DNA from: a virus
Length of the DNA stretch: 22,081 bases
Direction: 5' to 3' (one strand)
Virus record (IMG/VR): IMGVR_UViG_3300025881_001611
Coordinates: 1-22,081 of that record
Shown: one piece after another, positions 2,828 to 20,009 of the stretch
Layout: each line of letters begins with the position of its first letter
How positions within the stretch are numbered: position 1 is the first letter of the stretch
Made by a program: the position numbers and the translations under genes
The notes under the pieces: generated by a model
Told to the model about the DNA's origin: nothing
Databases searched by the model: none
Seen by the model: only the letters and a program-made list of their open reading frames with translations

Positions 2828-3828
2828 ATCAATTTATTCTTCCAAGTATCTGGTGTTTGATCATTTATAATTTCTAATGGTAGGTGGTATTGAAACTTTT
2901 TTGTACCTCTGGTTCTTATGTATTCTGCTGTCTTCTTAACTGACTGACGCATATTCGTCGCTGTGCTGTAACCTAGTAAATCCCTTGCTTTGTCTGATGA
3001 ACACACTGCTAGTTTGACTTCTTTGGGTCTATCTTTGTGGTGTATAGGATCTAAATTAAGTCCTGTTTCGTTTGCACAGGCCTCTGCTAACTCATTGATT
3101 GTTATAGGTTCTTCGTCTGGTCCTATGTTAATAACCTCTCCAACTACATTGTCTTGGAACGCAAGTGCATTCAAACAATACAAACAATCGTCTATGTAAC
3201 TAAAACATCTTTGCTGTTTGCCATCTCCGTATATGATTGGTTGCTTACCCTGTAACATTCTGTTCAACATGATAGACATAACATTCCTAAACGGATCATC
3301 ATACTTCTGTCTTGGTCCAACAATGTTGTGTGGCACAGCGATTACATACTCAACTCCGTGCGTTTCACATAAATTTTTAAGCACATCTTCTCCGGCTTTC
3401 TTTGCAATACCGTATGGATCTTGGGGACGACATTCGTAAGTTTCTTTGTAAGGCATCTCATCATGATGACCGTACCTTGCCATACTTGAACAATACACAA
3501 TACGTTTAACTTTGTTTCTTATTGCCGCTGTAATAGTTGTTACTGATGCTTCAAATATATTTCTTGTTACAAGCACAGGAGAGAACACTGACAGTCCTTC
3601 GTATGCCGTTGCGGCAGTATGATAAACTATGTCACAGCCTTCCATGGCTTTGGTCATGTTTTCTAAATCGCAACAGTCCACTTGATGAAACTCTACATTT
3701 TGGGGGACATTGTCTGTGTATCCACCAATCATGTTATCATTACCAGCCACTGTATGACCTTCTGATATCATTAAATCTGCTAGATGGGAACCTAAAAAAC
3801 CTGCTACACCTGTTATAAAAATTTTCAT
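2824..3828 (-). CDS. NAD-dependent nucleotide-sugar epimerase/dehydratase (extended SDR)
   Basis: An extended short-chain dehydrogenase/reductase of 334 residues. It has the N-terminal GxxGxxG NAD-binding motif (TGVAGFLGSHL, Gly7/10/13), the Ser114-Ser115 active-site segment (YCSSMARYG) and the catalytic YxxxK pair Tyr139/Lys143 (DPYGIAKKAGE). The C-terminal half has the family segments GPRQKYDDP, YGDGKQQRCFSYIDD and NIGPDEEPITINEL. Such proteins epimerise or dehydrate UDP- or dTDP-sugars; the closest general type is UDP-glucose 4-epimerase, but the exact reaction cannot be assigned. The tail ending in TPDTWKNKLI lies beyond the core fold. It lies between the FkbM gene (3848-4474) and the glycosyltransferase gene, in one leftward operon. 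A TTAAATAC sequence precedes its start by 5 bases. Confidence 0.85.
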   Translation of the reverse strand: MKIFITGVAGFLGSHLADLMISEGHTVAGNDNMIGGYTDNVPQNVEFHQVDCCDLENMTKAMEGCDIVYHTAATAYEGLSVFSPVLVTRNIFEASVTTITAAIRNKVKRIVYCSSMARYGHHDEMPYKETYECRPQDPYGIAKKAGEDVLKNLCETHGVEYVIAVPHNIVGPRQKYDDPFRNVMSIMLNRMLQGKQPIIYGDGKQQRCFSYIDDCLYCLNALAFQDNVVGEVINIGPDEEPITINELAEACANETGLNLDPIHHKDRPKEVKLAVCSSDKARDLLGYSTATNMRQSVKKTAEYIRTRGTKKFQYHLPLEIINDQTPDTWKNKLI

Positions 3829-3847
3829 TTTGAGTATTTAATTTAAG

Positions 3848-4474
3848 TTATGTACGGTAAAAAACTTTATCAGGCCAATGATCCAAGAGAACCTTAAAGC
3901 CTATTGAGCCTAGATACTTCTCTATCTCTATATTATTACTACCGTATTTTTTAGTGTTGTTGTTTAACTCTATCATTAGATATTTTACAGTTTCTAAAGT
4001 TTTCGTTGCACCTTTTACCACTTCCATTTCATAACCTTCAACATCAATTTTTATCATATCAATATCATAATACCCCATACTGTCAATAGTAATCATTCTT
4101 ATGTCGCCTTGTTTATCGACTCGTTTTGCTTGGGTGAAGTCATCCTCAGTTAACGATATTGATTTTATTTCTGATCCTACTGCTTCATTTCTCGGATCAC
4201 AATTTATAGTGCAATTACGTTGTAAACATTCAAAATGTAGTTTGTCTGGTTCGAAAGCAATTACTTTTTTTGCAAATGGTTCAATAGCCTTTGCCCATGT
4301 GCCGCACCAAGCACCTATATCAATAACTGTTTTAAATTTTTTACTTTGACTATTGCAGTAATCTAAAAACTTCAGTAAACATTTATTTTGAGTAAAAGGT
4401 TGTCCAGATTTCCATTGCTCTATATGTATATCATTCGATGGAACCCAAAAACCGTTTACTTTTTCTATCTTCAT
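3848..4474 (-). CDS. FkbM-family SAM-dependent methyltransferase
   Basis: A complete 208-residue FkbM-type methyltransferase. Motif I is TVIDIGAWCGTW (residues 49-60) and the next acidic strand is VIAFEPD. The family signature MIKIDVEGYEMEVVKGA spans about 140-156 and is followed by YLMIELN with the expected Glu. It would O-methylate a sugar hydroxyl or related acceptor in the cytoplasm with SAM. An AAAGGA ribosome-binding site lies 5 bases before the ATG, inside the end of the upstream glycosyltransferase-like gene, whose coding region overlaps by 4 bases. It is a distant paralogue of the truncated FkbM gene at the left edge of the window, so the locus carries two methylation steps. Function as a class is confident; the acceptor is unknown. 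Confidence 0.87.
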   Translation of the reverse strand: MKIEKVNGFWVPSNDIHIEQWKSGQPFTQNKCLLKFLDYCNSQSKKFKTVIDIGAWCGTWAKAIEPFAKKVIAFEPDKLHFECLQRNCTINCDPRNEAVGSEIKSISLTEDDFTQAKRVDKQGDIRMITIDSMGYYDIDMIKIDVEGYEMEVVKGATKTLETVKYLMIELNNNTKKYGSNNIEIEKYLGSIGFKVLLDHWPDKVFYRT

Positions 4475-5283
4475 AATATTCCTTTGTCCATTAGTATCTC
4501 AACTGCTGTGCCGTTGCTTAACTCCTCAGGAGTGAATTGTTGATAGGCCAAACTATATAACCAAGGTTCAGGTCCACCGTAATAAGGATTCTCTATGTCA
4601 GATAGTGCCACGTTGCCTACGTCCACAGCAAAACTCTTGTCATCACAGAACACAGGTATGCCTTCGCAAATCGCTTCAATTGCCGCGATACTGCAACTGG
4701 TAACAACACACCAGGCTTCCTTAAGGTCCTCGGATAGGGGTACTGTTGCCTCGCTTGGTCCTGATGTACCCCTGCCCCTAGGCTTGTGTCGAAGTCGGAT
4801 TGGTCTGTCTGTGTATCTCTTGATCTGTTCGATAGTCTCGTTCGTCCAGTTAGGTCTGTCTAAATAATTGTGTATGCCTGCACTACTAGGACAAACTAAA
4901 ATATACTTGCCAGCGAAATTTGGTGCCTTGATCTTCATTCCAAACTTTTCAAATCTATCGGCCTTGCAATTTTTGATGTAAGGAACGTGAATGGCATTCT
5001 TGCACACACGCCAATAATGGTTGTCAGGTTTTAGGTTGTTGTTGTCGAATCTTCCAAAGTAAGGTGTGTCGGTGAACCAGTAGTTGTGATTACGTGCTTC
5101 CAACTTCTTGACCATTTCCCTATTGTTGCCAACGAATCCCCAAAACATGCTGTTGCTTACTGGATCCGTTTCCGCGGCGTTGTCTAATTTTGTAATTTGA
5201 TCTGGCCAGGATTTCTCCACGCCATTAAACACTTCCCATGCCTTGCTGTTCTTATTATTAAATGGTGCGTAAATTGTTAGCAT
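4471..5283 (-). CDS. GT-B/Kdo-transferase-like capsule biosynthesis protein (paralogue 1 of 4)
   Basis: A 270-residue cytoplasmic protein sharing its C-terminal half with three other genes here (8954-9769, 9759-10739, 13249-14118). The shared core is AWCVVTSCSIAAIEA followed by GIPVF (residues 190-212), then an AVDVGNVALSDIENP segment and a tail with LAYQQFTPEEL. The pattern of a Ser-rich turn, an IEA helix and G-I-P-V-F is typical of the C-terminal nucleotide-sugar-binding domain of KpsC/KpsS-like capsule glycosyltransferases, so a retaining GT-B role is inferred. The equivalent of the RPHP motif seen in two paralogues is degenerate here (LRHKPRG). It also shares YILVCPSSAGIHNYL and TDRPI with the 8954 gene. 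It overlaps the SGNH-like gene upstream by 26 bases. Donor and acceptor are unknown. Confidence 0.6.
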   Translation of the reverse strand: MLTIYAPFNNKNSKAWEVFNGVEKSWPDQITKLDNAAETDPVSNSMFWGFVGNNREMVKKLEARNHNYWFTDTPYFGRFDNNNLKPDNHYWRVCKNAIHVPYIKNCKADRFEKFGMKIKAPNFAGKYILVCPSSAGIHNYLDRPNWTNETIEQIKRYTDRPIRLRHKPRGRGTSGPSEATVPLSEDLKEAWCVVTSCSIAAIEAICEGIPVFCDDKSFAVDVGNVALSDIENPYYGGPEPWLYSLAYQQFTPEELSNGTAVEILMDKGIL

Positions 5284-5947
5284 CTATAAACTCTTTAAGT
5301 TGTCCTGCCCAGTCCTTGTGTCCTTGTACGCTAGGGTGTGGATCTCCGGGTTTGCATTCTTGTTTGTTCGCAACAGTATAATCCAAATGGCTGGTGTTTG
5401 GTTTGAAAAATCTTTTCTTGTCAATCTTGTCAAACATAAACTTTATATCTTCGTTCGTTATTTCTGCGTCAGACAGTGTGTTATAAAACACATATGGATA
5501 TTTTTTATTTTGGAAATAGTCTTGCAAATCTAATAAAGCCAAGATTGATTCTATCTGTGTTGTTTGCTCTAAGTCCATTCCTGCTTTGAATAGATATTTT
5601 GTAAAATTTTTTGTGTGTTCATCCCTATTTGGATCCCACGTTTTCCATGTAGTTTTCATTGACGGAAATTTATGTGCTTTGTATCCATCTCCGGTTGGAT
5701 AATCAAACCTGTTCCCCCCACTTGATCCTATTAGAAAAAAACATTTTTCTGCTTGTTCAGGAAATTTCTCACACCATGTCCTAGTAGTCCACATCATTCT
5801 TTTTGAACCCCTGCCACCTCCGGCCAGGTTAACTGCAACATCCAGTTCCATCAATTTTGCAAGTTCGAGACCACAGTGAGTGTGTACGTTATCTTTTGGT
5901 CTGGTGGTAAGAAACGAGCAACCATTAATGAATAGATTAGAAACCAT
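5258..5947 (-). CDS. SGNH/GDSL-hydrolase-like protein
   Basis: A 229-residue protein with the block layout of SGNH hydrolases. The nucleophile block is FINGCSFLT with Ser11 (GCS in place of GDS), the oxyanion glycine lies in NLAGGGRGSKRM (40-51), the third block is GSSGGNRFD (74-82, with Asn79), and the Asp/His block is GDPHPSVQGHKDWA (201-214, Asp202 and His204). Such enzymes remove or transfer acyl groups, often acetyl groups on glycans. It has no signal peptide, so it would act in the cytoplasm, for instance on a glycan intermediate. It is the first gene of the leftward block, and its ATG lies only about 9 bases from a TATAAT sequence on that strand. Some family members are acyltransferases or have lost activity, so the reaction direction is unsure. 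Confidence 0.68.
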   Translation of the reverse strand: MVSNLFINGCSFLTTRPKDNVHTHCGLELAKLMELDVAVNLAGGGRGSKRMMWTTRTWCEKFPEQAEKCFFLIGSSGGNRFDYPTGDGYKAHKFPSMKTTWKTWDPNRDEHTKNFTKYLFKAGMDLEQTTQIESILALLDLQDYFQNKKYPYVFYNTLSDAEITNEDIKFMFDKIDKKRFFKPNTSHLDYTVANKQECKPGDPHPSVQGHKDWAGQLKEFIDANNLRTI

Positions 5948-5987
5948 AGTGCTATAATTATAGTGTAGTTATTCACAAAATGCAAAC
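5948..5987. promoter_or_regulatory. Divergent promoter spacer with palindromic TATAATTATA
   Basis: The 40-base gap between the leftward block (starting 5947) and the rightward block (starting 5988) contains the perfect 10-base palindrome TATAATTATA at 5952-5961, giving a sigma70-type -10 hexamer on each strand. On the plus strand it is preceded by TG in an extended -10 form, TGCTATAAT (5949-5957), identical to the -10 at 15351-15359. No convincing -35 was seen on either strand. Leftward transcripts would have almost no 5' leader. Promoter function is inferred. Confidence 0.55.
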
Positions 5988-7070
5988 ATGAAGAACATAG
6001 ATTCAATCAAATATTTCTTAGACAAGTGGGAGACTGTGGACGCCAGTTATAATTACACGGTACCATACCACCAAGATATAGATCCAAATTTCACAAGTTT
6101 ACCAACTTTCGTTGCTGAATTCCACGACTGCAAAGTGCATAGTTGCCCATTACTAGTAACCTATCAACAGAAATTGATAACCAATTATATATGGGGGCTC
6201 ACAAATCAACGCAGGAACAAACCAGGCAAGACACACAAACTATGGAAGGAATGGGGAGACGAAGTACAGGCAGAGCTACCGCCTGTTAGCCAACACTTCC
6301 ATGAGAAATATCTGTATGTATGGTTGCCCATAGATGAGGAAAGTGCAAACAACCCATGGCACATATGGATTGATGTGATATCAAAATTTAGGCTGTTGGA
6401 GAAACGCTGGTCCACAGATTTCACAAAGTATTGCTACGTGCTGGCAAACGAGAGCAGATATTTTAAGAAAGTAATCGAAGAATTGTTTCCTGAAATAAAA
6501 GTGCTCGTCATGCCAAAAGATGAAACGTGGCAATTCAAACACTTACTAGTGCCTAGCGCCAGTAATACAAAAGACGGAGTGATTACTCCTCATCTAGCAC
6601 CGTGGTTGAGGCACTTCAAGGGCCTGCACGGATCTGAGGTAAAAGAACCACATCGAAAGATTGTTGTGTTACGTCCAAGTGCAAAAACAAGAAGAATGAC
6701 AAATTCAGATGAACTGTTACTTGCCTTGAAAGGATGGGAGACAGTTGTGTTAGAAACAATGACAGTGCGAGAGCAAATGAAAACGTTTGCAGAAGCAACA
6801 CACATTGTTGCGGCCCATGGAGCAGGATTGGTCAATCTACTTTGGTGTAAACCAGGAACAAAAGTAATCGAAATACAAGACACTAAAATGATACATAAAA
6901 AAGTCTACCCGATCCTTTCACACCACCTAGGATTGAAACACGAACTGTACTTGGCCGACACGGTGCCAATAACATTACAAGACGGCAAGAAACCCAAGGG
7001 CATAAAAAGGCTAAGCGATCTAATAAATTTTAAAATCAATGTTCCTGACCTACTTAAATATCTCGATTGA
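5988..7070 (+). CDS. GT61-like (DUF563) glycosyltransferase
   Basis: A 360-residue protein whose C-terminal third matches the glycosyltransferase family 61 pattern. The segment RKIVVLRPSAKTRRMTNSDEL (223-243) is followed by FAEATHIVAAHGAGLVNLLW (267-286), with the diagnostic HGAGL at 277-281, and then CKPGTKVIEI. Family members transfer xylose, GlcNAc or other sugars; bacterial and phage members sit in capsule or LPS clusters. The N-terminal 200 residues are rich in Trp and Tyr and were not assigned to a domain. No signal peptide or membrane helix is visible. It is the first gene of the long rightward block driven from the divergent spacer at 5948-5987. No clear Shine-Dalgarno sequence precedes the ATG. 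Confidence 0.8.
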   Translation: MKNIDSIKYFLDKWETVDASYNYTVPYHQDIDPNFTSLPTFVAEFHDCKVHSCPLLVTYQQKLITNYIWGLTNQRRNKPGKTHKLWKEWGDEVQAELPPVSQHFHEKYLYVWLPIDEESANNPWHIWIDVISKFRLLEKRWSTDFTKYCYVLANESRYFKKVIEELFPEIKVLVMPKDETWQFKHLLVPSASNTKDGVITPHLAPWLRHFKGLHGSEVKEPHRKIVVLRPSAKTRRMTNSDELLLALKGWETVVLETMTVREQMKTFAEATHIVAAHGAGLVNLLWCKPGTKVIEIQDTKMIHKKVYPILSHHLGLKHELYLADTVPITLQDGKKPKGIKRLSDLINFKINVPDLLKYLD

Positions 7071-7072
7071 CA

Positions 7073-7963
7073 ATGAAAATTAAAGTTATAACATCTTACA
7101 AACCGGGCACTTGGGGATCGTTCGCCAAACGAGGAATACACTCCATGGTCGAACAATTTCCTCCGGAGGTAGATATATTTCTCTACTGTGAAGAACAACA
7201 ACCAAAGGACGTTGACAATAGAATAACGTGTGTTGATCTAACACAAGCAGAGCCAGAACTATTCAAATTTAAAGACAAGTACAAGGACGATCCAACCGCA
7301 AATGGCAAAATAAAACAGATCGAAGGTGGTGTAAGAAGGTCGCCCAACTTACAAGGGCTAGATAAAGATAAAGATTCTTTTCTTTGGGACGCTGTGAGAT
7401 TTGCAAACAAAGTTTTCTGTGTTATTAATGCAGTGCGTAACTCCGACGGATACGACTACGTGCTGTGGATAGATGCAGACACTTTCACTTTCAGACCTGT
7501 GCCATTAGATTTTTTCTCAAAATTATTACCAAAAGAAACCATGCTGACATACCTAGGTAGAGAAAATCCAACGTTAGGTGACGGGGGTGTTTATCCGGAA
7601 TGTGGATTCGTAGGATACAACCTTAAGCATCCAGAGACCCGGAACTTTATAAACGACTGGGAGCAACTTTATAAAACAGGCGATGTATTTAAAATTCTTG
7701 AATGGCATGATTCGTACGTGTTCTGGCATTTGTCAAAAATGTACAGGGCAGAAAAAAATATACAAGTGAACGACATAGGATATCACAAAGGAGTCAAAGG
7801 TCATCATGTTTTTATCAATAGTGAATTGGGACTGTACATGGACCATTTCAAAGGCAAGAGAAAACTCCACGGCACGTCTGCTAGAAATGATTTCCGTGTT
7901 AATCCTAACGCATCCTTTGATCTACAAAAGATAGATTACTGGAAAAAAGTACCACCGAGTTAA
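7073..7963 (+). CDS. DxD-motif glycosyltransferase (copy 1 of a duplicated pair)
   Basis: A 296-residue GT-A-like glycosyltransferase. The metal/nucleotide-sugar motif is DAD at residues 134-136 in YVLWIDADTF, followed by RPVP and a conserved PECGFVGYN block; the C-terminal half has INSELGLYMDHFKGKR. It closely resembles the gene at 12384-13247 along its whole length, including MKIKV-TSYKPGTW at the N-terminus. That paralogue begins exactly at MKIKV, so I place the start at ATG 7073; a TTG at 7067 would add two residues and overlap the preceding stop. TTAAATAT lies 11 bases before the ATG and also precedes the paralogue. Donor and acceptor are unknown; a role in building a phage-encoded glycan is inferred from the neighbours. 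Confidence 0.75.
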   Translation: MKIKVITSYKPGTWGSFAKRGIHSMVEQFPPEVDIFLYCEEQQPKDVDNRITCVDLTQAEPELFKFKDKYKDDPTANGKIKQIEGGVRRSPNLQGLDKDKDSFLWDAVRFANKVFCVINAVRNSDGYDYVLWIDADTFTFRPVPLDFFSKLLPKETMLTYLGRENPTLGDGGVYPECGFVGYNLKHPETRNFINDWEQLYKTGDVFKILEWHDSYVFWHLSKMYRAEKNIQVNDIGYHKGVKGHHVFINSELGLYMDHFKGKRKLHGTSARNDFRVNPNASFDLQKIDYWKKVPPS

Positions 7964-7983
7964 ATTAGACATAATTACATTAA

Positions 7984-8967
7984 ATGAAAAAAATTGCATT
8001 TGTAACAGGAATGACCGGACAAGATGGTCCTTACCTAGCCAAACACTTATTAGAAAAAGATTATAAAGTATACGGTTTGGTAAAAAGATACAGCAATCCA
8101 AATCTATCTAATCTTAACTATCTTGGAATAGAGAACGATGTAGAATTAATTACGGGCGACATAACAGACGATGCCAATGTGAACCATTTGGTAAAAACAA
8201 TTAGACCAAATGAATTTTACAATCTTGCCGCACAGAGTTTTGTGGGTGCTAGTTGGGATCTTAACAAACAGACAACTGAAGTAAATGCAATGGGTGTGTT
8301 GAATATCCTTAATGCAATAGTAAATCAAAACCCACTTACAAAATTCTATCAAGCAAGTACCAGTGAACTCTACGGCAACTCAAACGTTGACGGTTTACAA
8401 AACGAACAAACACCGTTCCACCCACGTTCTCCATATGGTGTGTCAAAACTGTATGCCTATTGGATGACTGTCAACTTCCGAGAAAGTTACAGCATACACG
8501 CCTCGAACGGAATTTTATTCAATCACGAATCACCCATAAGGGGCAAGGAGTTTGTCACAAGAAAAGTCACAGACGGTGTTGCTAAGATCAAACTAGGACT
8601 CGCAAAAAAAATTACACTAGGAAACCTAGATGCAAAAAGAGATTGGGGATTTGCTGGAGACTTTGTTGAGGCCATGTACACAATGGTGCAACAGCAAGAT
8701 CCAGGAGATTACGTAATATGCACAGGAGTGCAACATTCTATTAGAGAATTGCTTACTCATGCTTTCAGAACCGCTGGCATCGACGATTGGGAACAGTATG
8801 TTGAGTCGGACCCACGTTTCAAGCGTCCAGCAGAAGTACACGCACTGCATGGCTCATATGCCAAGGCAAAAGAAAAATTAGGATGGGAACCTAAGACCGA
8901 ATTCAAAGACATGGTTGCTTTGATGGTCACTGAAGACATAAAAAGATTGTCTCATGATCTACGTTAG
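7984..8967 (+). CDS. gmd: GDP-mannose 4,6-dehydratase
   Basis: Converts GDP-mannose to GDP-4-keto-6-deoxymannose, the precursor of GDP-fucose, GDP-rhamnose and GDP-perosamine. The family signatures are complete: GMTGQDGPYL for NADP binding (residues 9-18), TSELYG (126-131) carrying the catalytic Thr/Glu, YGVSKLYAYW with Tyr151 and Lys155, FNHESPIRGKEFVTRKV (179-195) and LGNLDAKRDWG (212-222). At 327 residues it is shorter than the E. coli enzyme (about 373), as phage versions tend to be. No obvious partner reductase (Fcl or Rmd type) or aminotransferase is seen in the window, although the epimerase at 2824-3828 might act on the product; otherwise host enzymes would complete the pathway. It overlaps the next gene by 14 bases. 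Confidence 0.95.
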   Translation: MKKIAFVTGMTGQDGPYLAKHLLEKDYKVYGLVKRYSNPNLSNLNYLGIENDVELITGDITDDANVNHLVKTIRPNEFYNLAAQSFVGASWDLNKQTTEVNAMGVLNILNAIVNQNPLTKFYQASTSELYGNSNVDGLQNEQTPFHPRSPYGVSKLYAYWMTVNFRESYSIHASNGILFNHESPIRGKEFVTRKVTDGVAKIKLGLAKKITLGNLDAKRDWGFAGDFVEAMYTMVQQQDPGDYVICTGVQHSIRELLTHAFRTAGIDDWEQYVESDPRFKRPAEVHALHGSYAKAKEKLGWEPKTEFKDMVALMVTEDIKRLSHDLR

Positions 8968-9769
8968 TTCCACCAATAGGGCACTCACAGAAAAATATAC
9001 TGACTGGGCCGCACAAGGCTTACCAGGAGCCGAGAAACTTGCACCAACTGAAATCATAAACAAGACGGACTGTACAAAAGCAGTGATGTTTGGTGTACTG
9101 CGTGGCACACATCTAGTGTATAAATGGGCAGAGAAAAATAACATAGATTTCTACTACATGGATCGACCCTACTGGGGAGAAACAAGATTCAATCCTTACT
9201 ATCTCAAAATTGTTAAAAACAATCATTTAAAAAACTGGCAGGAGGATAGACCAGACGATCGTTTTAAAAAATCATTCCCATGGCCCATTCATCCTTGGAA
9301 AAAGGACGGCAAGAACATAATAGTGTGTCCTCCATCTAATGCTATGAAGGAATTCTTTGGTGTGCATGATTGGTTGGACAAAACACTGGCAACACTGAAA
9401 GCCAACACAGACAGGCCGATAATTATTAAAAACAAAGGTTACAATCCTATCATAGGACGTGATGCCAACGGAGGAATGATTGTCACTGGTAAAGATAATA
9501 GTAAACCAAGTGGTCCCATAGACTGGGACAACGCTTATGCTGTTGTGACGTACAACTCAAATATCTCTTTAGAAGCGACCACTAGAGGCATTCCGTGCTT
9601 CACTGATCCACACAACGCTTGTGCACCTATATCAGAAACAGATTTCTCAAAAATAGAAAAACCTTGCTACATTGATAGAGAACCGTTATACTACTCAATG
9701 GCATACGGTCAATTTACAGCAGAAGAATTAAGAAACGGATATGCTTGGAGGATACTAGATGAAAGTTGA
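8954..9769 (+). CDS. GT-B/Kdo-transferase-like protein (paralogue 2 of 4)
   Basis: A 271-residue protein of the same family as the genes at 4471-5283, 9759-10739 and 13249-14118. The shared core is AYAVVTYNSNISLEA then RGIPCF (194-216), followed by a tail with YSMAYGQFTAEEL that is closest to the 4471 copy (LAYQQFTPEEL). It also shares NIIVCPPSNAMKEF and TDRPIIIK with that copy, so these two form a sub-pair. The RPHP phosphate-binding segment found in two other paralogues is not preserved. A nucleotide-sugar transferase of the capsule KpsC/KpsS type is the best guess. It overlaps gmd by 14 bases and the next gene by 11 bases, a strongly coupled arrangement. The exact sugar is unknown. Confidence 0.58.
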   Translation: MIYVSSTNRALTEKYTDWAAQGLPGAEKLAPTEIINKTDCTKAVMFGVLRGTHLVYKWAEKNNIDFYYMDRPYWGETRFNPYYLKIVKNNHLKNWQEDRPDDRFKKSFPWPIHPWKKDGKNIIVCPPSNAMKEFFGVHDWLDKTLATLKANTDRPIIIKNKGYNPIIGRDANGGMIVTGKDNSKPSGPIDWDNAYAVVTYNSNISLEATTRGIPCFTDPHNACAPISETDFSKIEKPCYIDREPLYYSMAYGQFTAEELRNGYAWRILDES

Positions 9770-10739
9770 AATATTTAGAAGGACAGTAAAAGATAGACGT
9801 AGGGGTGCTAGTTGGGATCTTTTACAGTACATGGCCGAGGGTATAAGAGCATGCGGTGACGAACCAATCATGGTAAACGAAACAAAAACCGGACCATGGA
9901 CTGAAAACGAAATGGAACCCACACACCCGATCGGTTGCATGTTTGGCTACGGAGGGACTAATCAAATGCATCACACAAAGGGTCGCAGACGAGACCTAGT
10001 GGAACGTGCAAAGAAAAAAGGAATCAAAATTATCACATTCGATGGTGGTTTACTTTCAAGTTTTGGCAACGTGCATGGCTCAAAACATCATTGGAGGGTT
10101 GCTTTGTTCTCACCAATGAACAATGGAGACTTCTTGTCAGATAACAGTCCCCCAGACAGATGGGAGGCCGCTAAAGCCAGATGGAATATCAAAAATGAAC
10201 CATGGAGAAAGTCCGACCAGGATGATCCTATTATGTTTGTGCTACAACCTAAAGACAACTGGAGCATGAACGAACTCGATCCCATAGAATGGTTCCATGG
10301 AGTATATGAAAAATTGAGACCTATCACAGAAAGGAAGTTCATTGTGAGGCCACATCCTAATCATGTTGTTGCTATAGAAAACAGGATGGGAGAATTTCCA
10401 GAAGATGTTGAAGTGGTCATAGGACAGAAATATTTCAACGGAGACGAAAAAAAATATTACAGATTCAATTATCAAGAAGCGATATCCAATTGTCATGCCG
10501 TTGTTACACACAATTCAACTGCGGGCGTAGATTCATGTGTGCGTGGTATCCCTACATTCAACACCTCAGATCTAGCATTGAGCTGGCCCGTGGCAAACAA
10601 AGATCTGAACAACATAGAAACTCCAGAGTACCCGGACAGGACACAATGGCTGAACGATCTCGGATACAAGTTATGGAGCGAAAAGGAAATCAGAGATGGC
10701 ACAGTGTTCAAAAGATTCAAAGATAAGTTGGGAATGTAA
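9759..10739 (+). CDS. GT-B/Kdo-transferase-like protein (paralogue 3 of 4)
   Basis: A 326-residue member of the four-gene family. It keeps the best-preserved pair of motifs: FIVRPHPNH (194-202) and CHAVVTHNSTAGVDS followed by RGIPTF (245-267), the arrangement seen in KpsC/KpsS-like capsule glycosyltransferases and related GT-B enzymes. An N-terminal Rossmann-like half ends near IKIITFDGGLLSSFG (89-103). A GGAGG ribosome-binding site at 9747-9751 lies 7 bases before the ATG. A 19-base stretch at 9803-9821 encoding GASWDL is identical to a stretch in gmd (8244-8262). Its stop shares one base with the start of the asparagine synthetase gene. A cytoplasmic glycan-building role is inferred. Confidence 0.62.
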   Translation: MKVEIFRRTVKDRRRGASWDLLQYMAEGIRACGDEPIMVNETKTGPWTENEMEPTHPIGCMFGYGGTNQMHHTKGRRRDLVERAKKKGIKIITFDGGLLSSFGNVHGSKHHWRVALFSPMNNGDFLSDNSPPDRWEAAKARWNIKNEPWRKSDQDDPIMFVLQPKDNWSMNELDPIEWFHGVYEKLRPITERKFIVRPHPNHVVAIENRMGEFPEDVEVVIGQKYFNGDEKKYYRFNYQEAISNCHAVVTHNSTAGVDSCVRGIPTFNTSDLALSWPVANKDLNNIETPEYPDRTQWLNDLGYKLWSEKEIRDGTVFKRFKDKLGM

Positions 10740-12367
10740 TGTGTGGCATATACGGTATAACCGAACATAATCCAGAATTCATAAAACAATTCATAGAAGT
10801 TTGCAAACACAGAGGTCCGGACGGTTCAAGCATGTGGCACAACGATAAAATAACATTAGGTCATAACTTGTTGAGTATAATGGGTGAACCAGGCAATGCG
10901 ACACAACCATGGACGACCCCTAACGGAAACAAACTTGTTTACAATGGAGAAATCTTCAACTACTACGAATTGAAGGAAAAGTACAAGGATTTTACAGACA
11001 CCTCAGGGTGTGACACCGAACTGCTCGCATGGGGACTTGACAATTTAGGACTATCATTCCTTGACGAGATAGATTCAATGCACGGCTTTGCTTACTACGA
11101 AAGAGACAAGAATACACTTACACTGAGTAGGGATCACGCAGGCGTTAAACCTGTGTACTATGCAGAAATAAAAGAGGGTCTGGTGTTTGGTTCTGAGATA
11201 AAAGGCATGTTAGATAAAGTGCCTGGGAGTAGGAAGCAGGACGAACTTGCTGTAGGTTGTATGACCACAACTGGCATTAATCCATTACGTAACACTTTTT
11301 TCACAGGAATAAAAAAATTACTCGCAGGTGAAACTATTGTATATGACTTAGACAACAAAACGGTAGTGAAAACAAAAAGGATATTCATAAAACCAAATTC
11401 AAACAAGAAATTCAATGCTGAAGAATTTAGAAAGATAGCACAAAAGTCTATAAAAATGGCAAGTATTGGCAGAAGAAAAATTGGAGTATTCTTGAGTGGC
11501 GGACTTGATTCCAGCATAGTTGCTTATGAACTTAAGAACGTATTGGGCTATGCCAACACTTTCACTAACAGGATGGAGCCAAACTACGTTCACCCAAAAG
11601 ACGGCGATCACAACGAGGATGCCGACTGTGCTAAAGTATTAGCGGATGCCAATGACTTCAACCATACAGAAGTAATAATTACGCCTGAGATTGCAAAACA
11701 ATACTGGGATGATTCTATATATTACATCGAGCAACCTGTGTATAATCCAAGCCTGTCGATGTATTGCTATACTAATAAAGTATTACATAGTAATGGTATA
11801 GTAGTCACAATGGCGGGCGATATGGGAGACGAGGTTTTGGGCGGCTATCCAAAATATTGGAAATTAAGAAAAGAACAATTCAATAATTGGTCGGACATAA
11901 TAGATAAATGGATCAATCGTATCAAGAGACCAATCAAAGTGTATGACAAAGTAAGATTACGTGATGAACTTTTAAAATGCTATCCAGACGACTTATGGAA
12001 TCCTAATGACCCTATAGGGTCATACATGGCACTGGATTGTGTTGCACAGGTTCCTGAAGAATTTTTAATGAGGAACGACAAGTATGGAATGGCTTACAGC
12101 ATGGAAGGACGTTTTCCTTTAGCGACGAAAACTTTCATGCAGTATTGCATGGACATTCATAGTGACGAGAAGATAGGTGAAACAAAAAGCGATACTAAAC
12201 TTTTGACCAAGGTTGCATACAAAAGATTATTACCAGATGTGATTGTCAATAAGATGAAGACAGGTTGGACTGTGCCACTACAACATTGGTGGAACAAAAC
12301 AGGCAAGGCAAGTATTCCAACAATGATTGTGGCTGATTGGATTAAAAAGTACAACATGACCGGGTAG
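10739..12367 (+). CDS. asnB: Glutamine-hydrolysing asparagine synthetase family protein
   Basis: A complete 542-residue class II glutamine amidotransferase, close to the E. coli AsnB length (554). The nucleophile Cys2 begins the protein (MCGIYG). RGPDG (25-29), YNGEIFNY (68-75) and RDHAGVKPVYY (131-141) complete the glutaminase half, and the ATP-binding PP-loop SGGLDSS lies at 253-259. The canonical reaction is aspartate plus glutamine plus ATP giving asparagine. Homologues inside O-antigen and capsule clusters are thought to amidate sugar carboxyls such as uronic acids, which fits this neighbourhood better than amino-acid supply, but the sequence alone does not decide. It overlaps the upstream gene by one base and is followed 16 bases later by the second DxD glycosyltransferase. 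Confidence 0.9.
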   Translation: MCGIYGITEHNPEFIKQFIEVCKHRGPDGSSMWHNDKITLGHNLLSIMGEPGNATQPWTTPNGNKLVYNGEIFNYYELKEKYKDFTDTSGCDTELLAWGLDNLGLSFLDEIDSMHGFAYYERDKNTLTLSRDHAGVKPVYYAEIKEGLVFGSEIKGMLDKVPGSRKQDELAVGCMTTTGINPLRNTFFTGIKKLLAGETIVYDLDNKTVVKTKRIFIKPNSNKKFNAEEFRKIAQKSIKMASIGRRKIGVFLSGGLDSSIVAYELKNVLGYANTFTNRMEPNYVHPKDGDHNEDADCAKVLADANDFNHTEVIITPEIAKQYWDDSIYYIEQPVYNPSLSMYCYTNKVLHSNGIVVTMAGDMGDEVLGGYPKYWKLRKEQFNNWSDIIDKWINRIKRPIKVYDKVRLRDELLKCYPDDLWNPNDPIGSYMALDCVAQVPEEFLMRNDKYGMAYSMEGRFPLATKTFMQYCMDIHSDEKIGETKSDTKLLTKVAYKRLLPDVIVNKMKTGWTVPLQHWWNKTGKASIPTMIVADWIKKYNMTG

Positions 12368-14118: not shown

Positions 14119-14873
14119 TGCAAACTATTAATATCGGGAGAAAAAATGTAATTGAACCAATCCCATGGGAACCATACACAGGTGAAACTATTATCTTAAA
14201 CACAACAATACGCAAGGGAAAACGTATACAAGAAACAGGATACTTTGAAGACAAAGTCAAAGCGGTCCCACGTGGCAATGCCTATTGTATAGGTAACGGG
14301 CCTTCACGTAAAGATTTTGATCTCAACAAACTAAAGGCCACAGGACAGACATATGGATGTAATGCACTGTACAGGGATTTCATGCCAGACTTCATATTCT
14401 CTGTAGATACCAAGATGTCAATGAAGATGGTGGAAGACGAGGTTGGGCTAAAGACTGTCCATTATGGTCCTTCGCTAGAAGTCAACAGGAAACAAAGCAA
14501 GGGAATGATACACTTAATTCCCAACAACCCCCACTGGATATCGGGCAACGCGGCATTCTGGACAGCAGGCGTACACGGACACAAAAACATATACCTACTA
14601 GGTTACGACTTCAGGGAATACGGCAAGGGAGAACTTAACAACATATATCAAGACACTGAGAATTACGGAGAACGTAATGACGACAAAATATTCGAGGGAT
14701 GGCTAAAACAATTCAGAGACATGTTAAAGATGAGGCCTTATGTGAACTATACCGTAGTACATGACAATCCTCCGGAGCATATGAACTATCTACAGACAGG
14801 CACCGATCTTGGCAACAGTCGAGTTATTAGTTACGATGAATTTGAAAAGATACTAGCACCTAGTAAGGCCTAG
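14118..14873 (+). CDS. DUF115/sialyltransferase-like Rossmann protein
   Basis: A 251-residue protein with the segment AYCIGNGPSRKDFDL (55-69), then TYGCNALYRDFMPDF (78-92) and a VD at about 96-97, then SGNAAFWTAGVHGHKNIYLLGYDF (142-165; key residues Gly143, Asn144, Gly162, Asp164). An I-G-N-G-P-S glycine loop followed by an N-x-x-Y segment and a later G-x-D is typical of the DUF115 (MptE/MAF-like) and GT42 sialyltransferase-related superfamily, which handle nucleotide-activated sugars including nonulosonates. The exact activity cannot be assigned. A GAGGAGAG ribosome-binding sequence lies upstream and the ATG overlaps the previous stop. It is the last gene of the rightward glycan block and converges with the SprT-like gene, overlapping it by 21 bases. 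Confidence 0.55.
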   Translation: MQTINIGRKNVIEPIPWEPYTGETIILNTTIRKGKRIQETGYFEDKVKAVPRGNAYCIGNGPSRKDFDLNKLKATGQTYGCNALYRDFMPDFIFSVDTKMSMKMVEDEVGLKTVHYGPSLEVNRKQSKGMIHLIPNNPHWISGNAAFWTAGVHGHKNIYLLGYDFREYGKGELNNIYQDTENYGERNDDKIFEGWLKQFRDMLKMRPYVNYTVVHDNPPEHMNYLQTGTDLGNSRVISYDEFEKILAPSKA

Positions 14874-15329
14874 TCCTGCAATCTTAAACTTGTTTCTCCA
14901 AGCAAAGAAGTTCGCATTGTGATTTGAATAAGGATCATTCATCCAGGCCATTTGGTAAAGGTGTACCATTTCGTGTGCCAAAGTCTCTATGAAGTCTTTC
15001 CATTTTGGAAACTTACAGTGCATTTCAATATAGAATTCAACTTCTAGATGGTAGGGTATCTTACGCTGATCAAATTTACCTTTTGGTGTTTTCCTGTTGT
15101 CCCAATTGGCAACACATCTACCCCAGTCTTTGTGTAGTTTTTTGATTTGTATCTCAACTATTGGTAATCTGCTGTTGAATAATGTCCTGTTAATGTATCT
15201 GAACCATTGATATGCTTGTTGCTGAGTTGGCCTGAAGCCTTTGGCATTCTTGTATCTAGTCGCAGTATTTTCCAACTTTACCTTAAGTTGTTTTTTGACA
15301 TTTACCGCTTTGTTCTTTGTTTTTTTCAT
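14853..15329 (-). CDS. SprT-like zinc metalloprotease
   Basis: A 158-residue protein with the zinc-binding HExxH motif as LAHEMVH (His119, Glu120, His123) and a likely third ligand His137 in SNHNANFFAWRNKF, the SprT/Spartan layout. Upstream segments FNSRLP and WGRC are also characteristic of the SprT fold. The N-terminal 35 residues are very lysine-rich and may contact nucleic acid. Cellular Spartan proteins cut DNA-protein crosslinks; small SprT-like genes occur in several T4-like phages with no established role. It is transcribed leftward, alone, between the glycan block and the replication block. Its start lies beside the promoter of the rightward operon, so the two are divergently arranged. 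Confidence 0.8.
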   Translation of the reverse strand: MKKTKNKAVNVKKQLKVKLENTATRYKNAKGFRPTQQQAYQWFRYINRTLFNSRLPIVEIQIKKLHKDWGRCVANWDNRKTPKGKFDQRKIPYHLEVEFYIEMHCKFPKWKDFIETLAHEMVHLYQMAWMNDPYSNHNANFFAWRNKFKIAGLGLTRC

Positions 15330-15331
15330 GG

Positions 15332-15359
15332 TTGACTATATTACCAAGTGTGCTATAAT
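15332..15359 (+). promoter_or_regulatory. Sigma70-type promoter with extended -10
   Basis: TTGACT (15332-15337) and TATAAT (15354-15359) are separated by 16 bases, and the -10 is extended as TGCTATAAT (15351-15359). This is the best host-sigma promoter match in the window and sits 24 bases before the ATG of the replication operon (15384). The same extended -10 occurs at 5949-5957. An early or middle phage promoter read by host RNA polymerase is the likely role. Confidence 0.68.
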
Positions 15360-15383: not shown

Positions 15384-16742
15384 ATGACTAATATGCACAC
15401 AGATTTGCCAAAAACAATTAACGAAGCACTTAAAATACTAGCATATAACGATTATTTTTGGGCAAATCCATCAATGATAGGAAATACAGCCGTAATCAAA
15501 CCACACCCCAAAGATCACGAAACTGTGAGATCTCTTGCAGAATCACAGTATGCATGGACGGAGAAGCAGGCCAGACTGGCATTAGTGATACTGAAAAGAT
15601 ATCTGACCAAGTTCCGGGCACACGGCATGGACATCAAGAAGTTGTTGGACAACCCTGTGTACGATGATGACTTCCGTGTGATCAGTTTTGACAAGGTCAT
15701 TGAGAAGTACACGGACGACGACAACGTTGACAGGATAGAGATGAGATTCCCATATCACAAGAAAGTAATACAACTGATACGTTGTATGAAAGACAAACGT
15801 GACCTACCAGGAATGTATGCGTTGTACGATGGTGAGAAGAAGAAATGGACATTCCAACACAGTGACGTCACTGCCTACTATCTGACCTTGATCGCTGTGA
15901 GATATGATTTTAAATTCACAGACGACAGTCTGCTCGACGACTACGAAGAGATTAAAAAACAAGTGATCGGACATCGTAAACCCACAGCACGATTGGTTGC
16001 CGGAGAGGTGGTCTTGGACAACGCACCAGAATCTCTGCAGGAATTCTGGAATGAAAATCTCAAGGACAAACCAGCGTTGACACAAGTGGACTCACTGAAG
16101 AACTTCGACATATCGACCAATGGCATCAATGTGCCAGCAGAGACCATGCTGGGTCACAAGATAGCACACAACAATTACCACAAGTTATGGATTGACTCCA
16201 AGGGCTTCTCAAAGAAGGAGGTGGTCAAAGGTCTCATTGAATTAGACTGTTTCCCATTGATCATGCCGGTGAGTGGAGACATACACATGGAAGATGATGT
16301 TAAGGATTTCTGGGAATGGATGAATGCATTCAAGACACACGGTGTTGACCTGTTGAATGAATGTAGTTGGGGATTCGATGTCAAGGAACCCATCTACAAG
16401 AAGGACCTAGAACGTTTCAACAGCGAAAGGACCTATCTATTAGACAATCAAAAATCAAAAGAGTTCTTTGAGAATCTATACGAATTACATCAAATGAGCA
16501 AACAGTTTAAATTAATCAATAAACAAACAAAAATAATATTCGTTAGGAATAGAATACCAAGGGCGTTGATCAAGAGCAAAGTCAAACCAAAAGCATCACT
16601 GGTTGGAATAGGTGGTGGTTATTATGCCACGGGCACGGACAACTTGAAAAGAATGCTTGAAAATCTTCCAAAAAAGTTGTATTATAGTGATCACCAACCG
16701 AGTAGTTGGGATTGGCATGATCACGTTATAGTAAAACTTTAA
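15384..16742 (+). CDS. Unknown 452-residue protein with a HARP-like segment, next to UvsW
   Basis: I do not recognise this protein as a whole. Residues about 118-190 run IEMRFPYHKKVIQLIR...GMYALYDGEKKKWTF...YYLTLIAVRYDFKF. The order of an R-x-P-Y strand, a helix, then K-x-W-x-F resembles the small HARP-like domain found ahead of SMARCAL1/Snf2-type annealing helicases. No Walker A or DEAD/DEVH box is present, so it is not itself a helicase. A C-terminal segment KIIFVRNRIPRALIKS...GIGGGYYATG (about 380-420) looks like an alpha/beta domain. It is the first gene after the promoter at 15332-15359 and ends 2 bases before uvsW, suggesting joint function in fork remodelling or recombination. ATG 15384 is used; an in-frame ATG at 15393 is an alternative. 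The domain resemblance is tentative. Confidence 0.8.
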   Translation: MTNMHTDLPKTINEALKILAYNDYFWANPSMIGNTAVIKPHPKDHETVRSLAESQYAWTEKQARLALVILKRYLTKFRAHGMDIKKLLDNPVYDDDFRVISFDKVIEKYTDDDNVDRIEMRFPYHKKVIQLIRCMKDKRDLPGMYALYDGEKKKWTFQHSDVTAYYLTLIAVRYDFKFTDDSLLDDYEEIKKQVIGHRKPTARLVAGEVVLDNAPESLQEFWNENLKDKPALTQVDSLKNFDISTNGINVPAETMLGHKIAHNNYHKLWIDSKGFSKKEVVKGLIELDCFPLIMPVSGDIHMEDDVKDFWEWMNAFKTHGVDLLNECSWGFDVKEPIYKKDLERFNSERTYLLDNQKSKEFFENLYELHQMSKQFKLINKQTKIIFVRNRIPRALIKSKVKPKASLVGIGGGYYATGTDNLKRMLENLPKKLYYSDHQPSSWDWHDHVIVKL

Positions 16743-16744
16743 AT

Positions 16745-18211
16745 ATGAGCAGTTGTAAATTAGTAATAAAAGATGAAGTGAATGTGAAGTTCGAGAACCT
16801 GAGCCTCGAATGGCGCAAGCGATTGTCTAACAAATTCAAATATGAGATACCATATGCAAGACATCTGCCAGCAGTCAAGTTGGGCAGATGGGATGGCAAA
16901 GTAAGTTTCTTTGGGTTGGGTGGTACAACATACCTGAACCTAGTTGACCAAATACTTCCTATTCTAGATGAGGGTGGTGTATACATAGATGTTGAAGATA
17001 AAAGAGAGCAACATAACTTTGAATTTAAACAAGTAGACAAAAATTATCTATCACACATAACGTGGCCCGACAATCATCCAGCGGCGGGACAGCCAATCGA
17101 ATTGAGAGACTATCAAGTGGAAACCATAAACAAATTTATAGAACATCCACAGAGCATACAAGAAATTGCCACGGGTGCAGGTAAGACCATTATTACAGCG
17201 GCCTTGTGCCAATTGGTCGAACCATATGGTAGGACACTGACCATTGTTCCAAATAAGAGTCTTGTCACACAGACCGAAGAGGACTTCCTTGCTTGTAATT
17301 TAGATGTGGGCGTGTACTACGGAGATAGGAAAGAACTAGGTAGGTTCAATACGATTGCAACATGGCAGTCACTAAACGTATTAGAAAAGAAAAGCAAAGA
17401 CGAACACACAACCGATTTCTTAGAAGCCATACAAGGAATAAACACAGTGATCATCGATGAGGTGCACATGGCCAAAGCAGATGTACTGAAGAGATTGCTG
17501 ACCGGTCCATTCGCACACTGTGGAATACGATGGGGACTTACAGGAACTGTGCCAAAAGCAGAGTACGAGTTCATGGGATTAAAATGTAGCATAGGTGACG
17601 TGTCCAATAGGATACAAGCCAGTGAACTGCAAGACAAAGGCGTGTTGGCCAACTGCCATGTGAATGTTTTACAGACACAGGATCATCCACAGTTCAAAAC
17701 ATACGGTGAGGAACTTAAATGGCTGACCACGGATAAGACCAGGATGAAGTGGGTTGCCAACACAATCAAAGACATATCAAGTTCGGGCAACACACTGATA
17801 CTTGTGGACAGGATATCTGCAGGTGAGATCTTAGAAGAACAGATCGAAGATTCAGTGTTTGTGTCTGGATCAACTAAAAACACAGACAGGAAGGAACAAT
17901 ATGATGAAATATCTACTGCAACAAATAAAGTTATCATTGCCACATATGGAGTTGCCGCTGTTGGTATTAATATTCCTAGGATTTTTAATCTTGTTCTCAT
18001 AGAGCCGGGCAAGTCATTTGTCAGGGTAATACAGAGCATAGGACGTGGGATTAGAAAAGCGGAAGACAAGGACAGCGTACAGATCTGGGACATTACCAGC
18101 AGTTGCAAGTTTGCAAAAAGACACCTAGGGGCAAGGAAAAAGTTTTACAAAGAGGCCAATTACCCGTATAATATAGAAAAGATAAATTATGAAAATCCTT
18201 ACACTGGATAA
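16745..18211 (+). CDS. uvsW: UvsW-type superfamily 2 DNA/RNA helicase
   Basis: T4 UvsW unwinds R-loops and branched DNA, drives fork regression and helps switch from origin- to recombination-dependent replication. At 488 residues this protein is close to T4 UvsW (about 503). The N-terminal 60 residues match the UvsW DNA-binding domain pattern (KFENLS...ARHLPAVKLGRWDGKVSFF). Motif Q/Ia begins at IELRDYQ (118-124), Walker A is ATGAGKT (142-148), the DEVH box is IIDEVH (236-241), motif III is GLTGT (264-268) and motif VI is QSIGRGIRK near residue 440. The gene starts 2 bases after the HARP-like gene and overlaps the next by 23 bases, within one rightward operon. Confidence 0.95.
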   Translation: MSSCKLVIKDEVNVKFENLSLEWRKRLSNKFKYEIPYARHLPAVKLGRWDGKVSFFGLGGTTYLNLVDQILPILDEGGVYIDVEDKREQHNFEFKQVDKNYLSHITWPDNHPAAGQPIELRDYQVETINKFIEHPQSIQEIATGAGKTIITAALCQLVEPYGRTLTIVPNKSLVTQTEEDFLACNLDVGVYYGDRKELGRFNTIATWQSLNVLEKKSKDEHTTDFLEAIQGINTVIIDEVHMAKADVLKRLLTGPFAHCGIRWGLTGTVPKAEYEFMGLKCSIGDVSNRIQASELQDKGVLANCHVNVLQTQDHPQFKTYGEELKWLTTDKTRMKWVANTIKDISSSGNTLILVDRISAGEILEEQIEDSVFVSGSTKNTDRKEQYDEISTATNKVIIATYGVAAVGINIPRIFNLVLIEPGKSFVRVIQSIGRGIRKAEDKDSVQIWDITSSCKFAKRHLGARKKFYKEANYPYNIEKINYENPYTG

Positions 18212-18692
18212 CAGAACATACACATTAGAGAAGATACCTGAATGGGTTGATGAGGAACTTAGATTCGCAGTGCTTGACAATTCAGATCCGGCAAACCCGG
18301 ACTTCTTCTACATACCGTTAATATTTCTAGAGAGCTTCAATGCACCAGCGGCGGTATTAGAAATAGGTGATTATAAAATCAAAATGCCTTTGGATTGGAA
18401 GATGCTTATAGGAGAAGCAGGACAATCGGAGATGCACGTGTTACCAATTACAAGTCTGAATGATAGAGGATTTGATGCTTTCACATTCAATCCGTTATCA
18501 AGTCCTAAACCTGATTTTTATCCAATTGATGTGGTAGACATATACACAGAAGTGAAATGGTATTTCCCAAAAATAAAATCAGGACAGATGTTGGCAGTGC
18601 CACTGAACAACGGTCCAAAACCTATGTGTGCCTACTTTGTCAAGGACATCTCGAGACAATGTGAACAGGTAGACTATGGCTCTGTCTGGTAG
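18189..18692 (+). CDS. Conserved hypothetical protein of T4-like marine phages
   Basis: A 167-residue protein with no known catalytic motif. Recognisable segments are IPEWVDEELRF near the N-terminus, FLESFNAPAAVLEIGDYKIKMPLDW (about 49-73) and LPITSLNDRGFDAFTFNPLSS (about 85-105). From memory, proteins with this FNAPAA...P-LDW...LNDRGF pattern are conserved in marine T4-like phages close to replication or transcription genes, with no assigned function. No membrane segment, signal peptide or zinc motif is seen. It overlaps uvsW by 23 bases and the next gene by 17 bases, so coupled translation is likely. No Shine-Dalgarno sequence is obvious before the ATG. Confidence 0.82.
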   Translation: MKILTLDNRTYTLEKIPEWVDEELRFAVLDNSDPANPDFFYIPLIFLESFNAPAAVLEIGDYKIKMPLDWKMLIGEAGQSEMHVLPITSLNDRGFDAFTFNPLSSPKPDFYPIDVVDIYTEVKWYFPKIKSGQMLAVPLNNGPKPMCAYFVKDISRQCEQVDYGSVW

Positions 18693-18909: not shown

Positions 18910-19342
18910 AAAATTTTTTGATCTAAGAAACGGTTTAAAAGCCGTGGACTTCAGGAACAAGGACTACTTCGACAGGATCGATGACAAGGAGAAATCGTTG
19001 TACTCACCATACATGCTGATGAGATATGTTTCCAATGTGTCTTCGAAGGATCCGTTCTATATAGAACACTACATAGAGATGGTAAACGAATGTGTGAACA
19101 AGCACTGCTTCACACTGGGCAAACACAAGAAACTGTTATGGATACTGACCGCCATGTGTGGAGCAGAGACAACACAATTCCATCAATGGATCAAACCAAT
19201 GAAGCGTGTACCAAACAAAAGTCTAAAGAAATTACAACAGATATACCCAACGTGGAAGGAAGCAGACCTAGAGACATTAGACAAGGTAATAACTGATAGA
19301 GAACTAGAGGAACTGATAGAGGCACATGGCATCGACAAATAA
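18890..19342 (+). CDS. gp62-like small clamp-loader subunit (probable)
   Basis: A 150-residue protein whose layout resembles the DNA polymerase clamp-loader small subunit gp62 of marine T4-like phages. An acidic N-terminal region ending DDKEKSLYSPYMLMRYVS parallels the E-K-x-Y-x-P-F...N-x-x-LSY segment. A central EMVNECVNKHC...GKHKKLLWILTAM...FHQWIKP parallels the NEMN...L-x-K-x-Q-x-x-x-x-x-N-x-I-R...KW segment, and a C-terminal helix pair has LKKLQQIYPTWKEADLETLDKVITDRELEEL. gp62 joins gp44 to load the sliding clamp gp45. The T4 protein is longer (about 187). gp44 and gp45 are not in this window, so the linkage differs from T4. The match is recalled by eye rather than computed, hence moderate confidence. 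It overlaps neighbours on both sides. Confidence 0.6.
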   Translation: MPAEKNRKFFDLRNGLKAVDFRNKDYFDRIDDKEKSLYSPYMLMRYVSNVSSKDPFYIEHYIEMVNECVNKHCFTLGKHKKLLWILTAMCGAETTQFHQWIKPMKRVPNKSLKKLQQIYPTWKEADLETLDKVITDRELEELIEAHGIDK

Positions 19343-20009
19343 ATGCACATACTGTGGCAAGGAGTTTGCCAAGGAACGTACACTGCAAGTGCATCTGTGC
19401 GAGCCAAAGAGAAGGTATCTTCAAAGAGATGAGAAGTGGGTAGTGAATGCGTTCATGGTGTTCCAAAGATTCTATCAGATACATCAACACAATTCAAAAA
19501 CAAAAACATACGACGATTTCGTCAAGAGTTCATACTACAACGCATTCGTGAAGTTTGGAAGATTCATCATGCATGTCAACCCATTGTATCCTGAAAAGTA
19601 CATAGAGTTTGTTTTGAGATCAAAGATAAAACTTGACCACTGGGCAAGGGATGACCTATACGAAACTTACTTAATAGAAGCACTTAAAACAGAACCGGTG
19701 GAGGCCGCACTGCAAAGAAGCATCGCAACAATGATGGATTGGGCCACAGAACAAAACGCACAATGGTCAGACTACTTCAGATTGGTCAACACCAACAGGG
19801 CAGTGCAACACATACAGCAAGGAAAAATTAGTCCGTGGCTATTGTTAGGTTGCGGCGCAGGCAAAAGGATGTTAAAATCTTTTAACGACGAACAATTACA
19901 AATGATAGAAAAATTTATTAATACAAGTTTCTGGCCAAGCAAATTAAAGAGTTATCCTGCTGACCACATGCTGGTGCAAGACACAGCAAGGGAGGCCAAG
20001 ATTGTCTAA
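19326..20009 (+). CDS. Zinc-finger-containing conserved phage protein
   Basis: A 227-residue protein starting with a zinc-finger-like motif: Cys7-x2-Cys10, then FAKERTLQVHLC with His23 and Cys25, a C2HC-type arrangement. This is followed by PKRRYLQRDEKWVVNAFMVF, FDDFVKSS-like YDDFVKSSYYNAFVKFGRF and ISPWLLLGCGAGKRML. From memory, this combined architecture is conserved in T4-like marine phages as an unnamed protein. The finger suggests nucleic-acid binding. A GAGG sequence precedes the ATG, which lies inside the end of the gp62-like gene (17-base overlap). It overlaps the next gene by 8 bases. A regulatory or replication role is inferred from the context only. Confidence 0.8.
   Translation: MASTNKCTYCGKEFAKERTLQVHLCEPKRRYLQRDEKWVVNAFMVFQRFYQIHQHNSKTKTYDDFVKSSYYNAFVKFGRFIMHVNPLYPEKYIEFVLRSKIKLDHWARDDLYETYLIEALKTEPVEAALQRSIATMMDWATEQNAQWSDYFRLVNTNRAVQHIQQGKISPWLLLGCGAGKRMLKSFNDEQLQMIEKFINTSFWPSKLKSYPADHMLVQDTAREAKIV
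19990..19995 (+). promoter_or_regulatory. Strong ribosome-binding site deciding a TTG start
   Basis: GGGAGG ends 6 bases before a TTG codon at 20002. No ATG lies near the start of this reading frame, so this Shine-Dalgarno sequence supports the unusual TTG initiation of the next small gene. Confidence 0.6.

Follow-up and report, generated by a model that had tools for sequence, protein, structure and literature searches.

The ORF at positions 15,384 to 16,742 (+ strand, ATG...TAA) of a 22,081-nucleotide stretch of viral DNA (IMG/VR record IMGVR_UViG_3300025881_001611; hereafter, the window) encodes a 452-aa UvsW-adjacent HARP-like pseudo-helicase, designated P0001. The family to which it belongs is genuine, evolves rapidly, consists of HARP-like pseudo-helicases without a motor, and is fixed before uvsW. 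The anatomy of this family, which is partly predicted, its position, and its co-inheritance with uvsW are demonstrated or well supported. P0001 is probably a helper of UvsW and not an enzyme of its own. The more specific reading, that it is a non-catalytic partner of UvsW that binds branched DNA, has about an even chance of being correct, and here we infer both the partnership and the DNA binding.

Gene Position and Domain Organization

The uvsW gene (16,745–18,211, + strand), which encodes an intact SF2 helicase (T4 UvsW, E 4e-30), begins exactly 2 bases behind the P0001 ORF, as originally predicted. The fourth codon of P0001 (ATG at 15,393) is the start in a number of homologues. Three modules can be delineated in the protein: an N-terminal helical module (residues 40–100; 15,501–15,683, + strand), in which T59, Q62, and Y73 are kept in at least 90% of 56 family members; a HARP-like module (residues 104–180; 15,693–15,923, + strand) with a predicted strand-strand-helix-strand-strand-helix order; and a predicted single degenerate RecA-like lobe of the helicase type (residues 225–452; 16,056–16,739, + strand). 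A weak DUF7400 match at residues 53–105 (15,540–15,698), seen in 12 of 24 close members with a best E of 0.0099, overlies the conserved T..Q..Y helical module. P0001 had no match in PHROGs, and tblastn searches of the annotated phage collection found no close homologue of P0001 or, likewise, of two divergent family members. Searches by sequence against solved structures, performed with the single sequence and with two alignments, gave nothing useful.

A promoter-like site (TTGACT-16-TATAAT with TG; 15,332–15,359, + strand), which is a consensus match only (11/12), lies 24 bases before the ATG. The original prediction regarded it as the strongest promoter in the window; it does have the top score, but it shares that score with a promoter-like site at 18,144–18,172, and such matches as a class were not above shuffled sequences in a local scan (12 versus 8.8, sd 3.0). 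Divergent from P0001 lies a gene for an SprT-like metalloprotease (14,853–15,329, − strand; PF10263, E 3.3e-8), which lies directly upstream of the P0001 relative in every one of the 55 close contigs that could be tested but was found in only 1 of 87 diverse uvsW loci. Directly behind uvsW is a gene for a 167-aa protein of unknown function (phrog_11279; 18,189–18,692, + strand), a conserved neighbor that has a counterpart no more than 1 kb downstream of uvsW in 82 of 87 diverse loci. A phrog_11058 gene (19,326–20,009, + strand), whose product weakly matches a C2H2-type zinc finger, has counterparts in 64 of the 87. Upstream of the recombination genes, positions 523–12,367 hold a sugar or surface-modification cluster that encodes a radical SAM/SPASM protein, a glycosyltransferase, two nucleotide-sugar epimerase-like proteins, and an asparagine synthase-like protein.

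HARP-Like Module

Mason and others reportedly solved the structure of the HARP domain in 2014 and swapped this domain into UvsW. The HARP profile (PF07443) was the top Pfam match of P0001 (E 0.0097, 15.9 bits), aligning residues 119–161 with positions 2–36 of 55. The Pfam gathering cut-off of 25 bits was reached neither by P0001 nor by any of 13 records, the best score being 19.7 bits. Among 24 close homologues, 21 gave the same match at E ≤ 1, as did 12 of 18 members of a more divergent selection; these counts come from related and not from independent sequences. In the 56-member family set, the match was found in 11 members. HARP was also the sole Pfam match of L257, a member only 19% identical to P0001, at homologous residues (E 0.038); nine other distant members gave no HARP match in the same search (1 of 10 in total). 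The HARP resemblance originally proposed for about residues 118–190 is therefore borne out as a sub-threshold similarity that recurs in homologues.

Within the HARP-like segment, an F-P-F/Y core (residues 122–124) is kept across the family; of the 43 distant rows, 88% have P123. The segment has a pI of 6.8; it is not basic and does not advertise DNA binding. The AlphaFold2 (AF2) model places the strand-strand-helix-strand-strand-helix order at residues 105–173, which is compatible with the HARP fold as described in a passage of PMC4666394. Set against the five-stranded sheet and two helices of HARP, this predicted order is what P0001 offers, in a region that was barely sampled by the fold searches; no HARP structure appeared among the inspected rows of the Foldseek and fold comparisons of the P0001 models with the PDB. 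A HARP search of 288 prokaryote genomes gave no match, and its controls were equally silent. According to passages of PMC9368896, no SMARCAL1 homologue is known in prokaryotes.

Predicted Motorless Helicase Lobe

Structure prediction by AF2 with a 56-row alignment, 43 rows of which were distant, gave a mean pLDDT of 82.3 (80.6–82.3 for the five models, which agree in score) and a RecA-type sheet after the HARP-like segment. When the Foldseek matches in the PDB were re-aligned, residues from about 225 to 452 could be superimposed on the lobes of SF2 enzymes, including SauUSI (Z 10.5, rmsd 3.7, 139 aligned residues), TFIIH XPB (Z 9.8, rmsd 3.9, 154 aligned), Snf2 and Chd1 (Z about 8.7), and lobe 1 of T4 UvsW (1RIF, residues 87–282; Z 8.2, rmsd 4.4, 159 aligned). 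A second model gave Z of about 8–9.3, mostly with first lobes and in some cases with second lobes of DEAD-box proteins. Taken over both predicted models, a RecA-like lobe was matched with Z of about 8–10.5 over 132–170 residues, where a best Z of 7–8 is typical even without a clear structural match. The Foldseek E-values of the P0001 models against the PDB were not significant (best, 8e-3 and 1.1e-2), and the lobe assignment therefore relies on how consistently helicase lobes recur among the rows, together with the domain order.

From this topology, the place of motif I (Walker A) is likely to be between predicted strand 267–271 and helix 277–286 (16,182–16,223, + strand), that of motif II at strand 384–387 (16,533–16,559, + strand), and that of motif III at and after strand 404–407 (16,593–16,640, + strand). 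GK[ST] and DExH are absent from the motif I and II places of P0001, and the motif I place holds no GK[ST] in any family member inspected. Among 58 family members in uvsW loci, GK[ST] occurs somewhere in six, DExH in one, and both in none, whereas both are present in 58 of the 58 neighboring UvsWs. A second RecA-like lobe is also absent, as P0001 stops after one lobe at residue 452; the HARP-like module is fused to this one degenerate lobe and not to an active SNF2 motor. The earlier statement that the protein lacks helicase motifs thus holds for the sequence motifs at the expected places but not for the fold, which is predicted to be of the helicase type. With its C-terminal half predicted as a degenerate helicase lobe, P0001 is also not the mere recognition module that had been envisaged. 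As modeled, P0001 corresponds to half a helicase without the motor, and its domains follow the order seen in the N-terminal half of T4 UvsW.

It is quite unlikely that the HARP resemblance arose by chance and that P0001 is an alpha/beta protein of unrelated origin, its C-terminal sheet aligning with helicase lobes by accident. The sub-threshold Pfam scores, the lack of a HARP match in most of the distant members (1 of 10 matched in one search), and the range of Z that is typical without a clear match would fit such a coincidence; nevertheless, HARP was the top match at homologous residues in two sequences as divergent as P0001 and L257, the best Z reached 10.5 and the rows seen were helicase lobes, and the order of HARP followed by a lobe is shared with SMARCAL1 and T4 UvsW.

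Family Distribution and Co-Inheritance with uvsW

Pattern scans of IMG/VR with three queries yielded 144, 230, and 294 relatives, of which 80 were kept for each query from partly shared contigs. In the 80 contigs kept for the first query, uvsW lies directly downstream of the P0001 relative in 75 of 75 testable contigs; the remaining five end within about 50 bases. A further sample consisted of 80 loci picked by UvsW alone. At E ≤ 1e-4, a profile of the window clade recovered 30 members from the ORF pool of these loci in addition to the clade's own three; all 30 are directly before uvsW, and the first match elsewhere had an E of 1.1. Among the 73 loci whose sequence reaches more than 1.1 kb beyond the start of uvsW, an iterated profile detected the family in 50, namely 48 of 65 IMG/VR loci, the metagenome-assembled genome (MAG) contig L224, and one of seven annotated phage records (Sinorhizobium phage Phosso). 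The conserved adjacency to uvsW, whose absence from related phages was among the outcomes named as refuting the original prediction, was accordingly found in close contigs and diverse loci alike. No family member was found at the uvsW of Atu_ph07, PAC2, GAP32, 121Q, SCTP-2, or Vibrio phage 2.275.O, and the iterated profile detected none in 17 of the 65 diverse IMG/VR loci. In five loci without the family (L228, L241, L258, L274, and L296), a gene with a weak AAA ATPase match precedes uvsW, which is possibly a functional replacement for the P0001 family. Because 17 of 65 loci are without a detectable member and several of them carry an AAA protein, UvsW can do without a P0001-type protein.

The gap or overlap between the family gene and uvsW is nearly always small. 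Mean identity within the P0001 family is 22%, against 67.5% for the neighboring UvsWs, and pairwise distances in the two proteins correlate with a rho of 0.80 over 48 pairs, where 500 permutations gave at most 0.15. The low identity of the family relative to the adjoining UvsWs would also fit a takeover or counter-defense factor, in which a dead helicase acts as a decoy or inhibitor of a host or host-defense helicase and evolves rapidly for that reason. Such a role is distinctly improbable, as the family keeps its position and is co-inherited with uvsW and not with variable accessory genes, and its members occur in a large and diverse set of phage contigs.

Within the phage collection, the jumbo phages Phosso, Atu_ph07, PA5oct-like, and GAP32 have the UvsWs nearest to that of the window, and among the contigs of the family/uvsW loci, L272 (357 kb) and L279 (280 kb) are of jumbo size. 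P0001 relatives also occur in three MAG contigs (L224, L225, and L226) labeled Candidatus Pelagibacter and Verrucomicrobia TMED56, which are probably phage contigs binned with their hosts. As to the description of the genome as pelagiphage-type, the nearest UvsWs come from jumbo phages; a close P0001 relative lies in the Candidatus Pelagibacter contig L224, and Pelagibacter may be right as the host.

A full-length window-clade profile found no match in seven whole jumbo phage records; this search was too coarse, since it missed Phosso gp418, whose homology emerges when profiles are compared. Atu_ph07 gp083 was considered as a family member and set aside as weak (profile score 22.6; best shuffle, 21.4). 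Matches in BFVD included a 181-aa Atu_ph07 protein (E 6.2e-6) of the same length as gp083, proteins of uncultured Caudovirales phages with E-values as low as 7.8e-22, and, in Bacillus phage vB_BcoS-136, a "HepA-related protein" of 245 aa.

Split Versions in Phosso and L227

As judged by sequence comparison, P0001 is truly split elsewhere, namely in Phosso and in L227. In both, the N-terminal HARP-like half is a separate gene (gp418 of Phosso, 212 aa; 223 aa in L227), followed by a gene for a protein of about 500 aa and then by uvsW. The homology of Phosso gp418 covers about residues 28–211 of P0001 (E 2.6e-12). With the window-clade profile, gp418 scored 38.3, where 100 shuffles gave no more than 25.5; with a deep profile built without L227, it scored 77.0, where the highest of 100 shuffles was 20.7. 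Homology links the two genes of about 500 aa (E 1e-19), and neither had a significant match in the databases; by eye only, they look like decayed SF2 helicases.

The intervening gene in Phosso and L227 bears on an unlikely, though not negligible, explanation in which P0001 is an independent recombination protein that binds DNA structures, as an annealing protein or mediator beside UvsX/UvsY, and stands near uvsW by gene clustering without contacting UvsW. Adjacency alone also fits this explanation, AAA proteins take the place of P0001 in some loci, and the region from the RecA-like gene to uvsW holds varied genes in several jumbo phages. On the other hand, the nearly always small gap or overlap with uvsW and a predicted anatomy that points to helicase ancestry argue against such independence.

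Relation to UvsW and Known Systems

T4 UvsW serves as a model enzyme for fork regression. The N-terminal region of the window UvsW (residues 1–110; 16,745–17,074, + strand) contains its own HARP-type domain, as recognized by homology to T4 UvsW, to which it aligns from residue 27 on, within the N-terminal domain. T4 UvsW has a single N-terminal HARP domain according to a passage of PMC4666394. Since the window UvsW has a HARP-type domain of its own, P0001 does not replace a missing module but adds a second one, and the original idea of a split system, with the fork-recognition module of UvsW provided by the phage as a separate subunit, is not supported in that form. The P0001 profile showed no sequence homology to UvsW (hhalign E 0.22 for the whole protein and 0.035–0.46 by domain). 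An origin of P0001 by duplication of UvsW was also considered and is unsupported, with no profile similarity either overall or by domain.

P0001 resembles SMARCAL1 in its sub-threshold HARP match at residues 119–161, in the compatible strand/helix order, and in the order of HARP followed by a lobe, which is also that of T4 UvsW; it differs in scoring below the cut-off, in covering only the first 36 of 55 positions, and in lacking an SNF2 motor on the same polypeptide. SMARCAL1 has two HARP repeats, a layout comparable to the P0001 module together with that of UvsW. The N-terminal half of T4 UvsW (1RIF), which consists of the HARP-type domain and the first RecA lobe, has the same domain order as P0001, whereas P0001 shares no sequence similarity with it, lacks the catalytic motifs and the second lobe, and adjoins an intact uvsW. 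The gp418–gp419 pair of Phosso and its L227 counterpart are alike in the homology of gp418 and in its location upstream of uvsW, and unlike in comprising two genes. In RecC and AddB, both parts of active complexes, a helicase-like fold persists as a noncatalytic element that binds DNA or a partner; in contrast to P0001, these two are of the SF1 type and belong to different complexes. In passages of PMC7824862, UvsW.1 of T4-type phages is described as a trihelical protein and a potential DNA-binding partner of UvsW, and UvsW and UvsW.1 are named in jumbo phages; no mention of HARP or inactive helicases was found in those passages. P0001 differs from UvsW.1 in its large size, its alpha/beta architecture, and the location of its gene before uvsW. 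In the open-licence literature, covered mostly as titles and abstract openings, no paper on a HARP-like protein beside a phage uvsW was found.

Proposed Mechanism and Implications

Based on the predicted anatomy and the conserved gene order, a possible mode of action can be proposed for P0001. The protein would be related to the HARP-type SF2 helicases but without a motor, and built from a small helical module, a HARP-like module that binds branched DNA, and one RecA-like lobe in which the motifs for ATP binding and hydrolysis are lost. P0001 is probably co-translated with UvsW. The HARP-like module may then hold stalled forks, D-loops, or R-loops, while the dead lobe could provide a docking or clamp surface, such that UvsW would regress or anneal the right junctions. 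The joint work of the two proteins would be fork regression, annealing, or R-loop removal, with the partner contributing a second binding module beside the HARP-type domain of UvsW. By extension, in many jumbo-type phages, UvsW could be a two-subunit fork remodeler, composed of an active HARP-bearing motor and a motorless HARP-and-dead-lobe subunit translated just before it, a generalization that we regard as tentative, with a likelihood somewhat short of even.

If this two-subunit arrangement is true, a fork-regression enzyme would have a pseudo-helicase as its partner, and phages would possess an equivalent of the doubled HARP module that SMARCAL1 carries. A conserved, unannotated gene for a UvsW partner would make fork remodeling a two-protein process in a wide set of large phages, and the P0001 family would give a minimal natural test of a HARP module without a motor. 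Partnership with UvsW also offers a testable function for a family whose member in the window has no match in PHROGs or among annotated phages.
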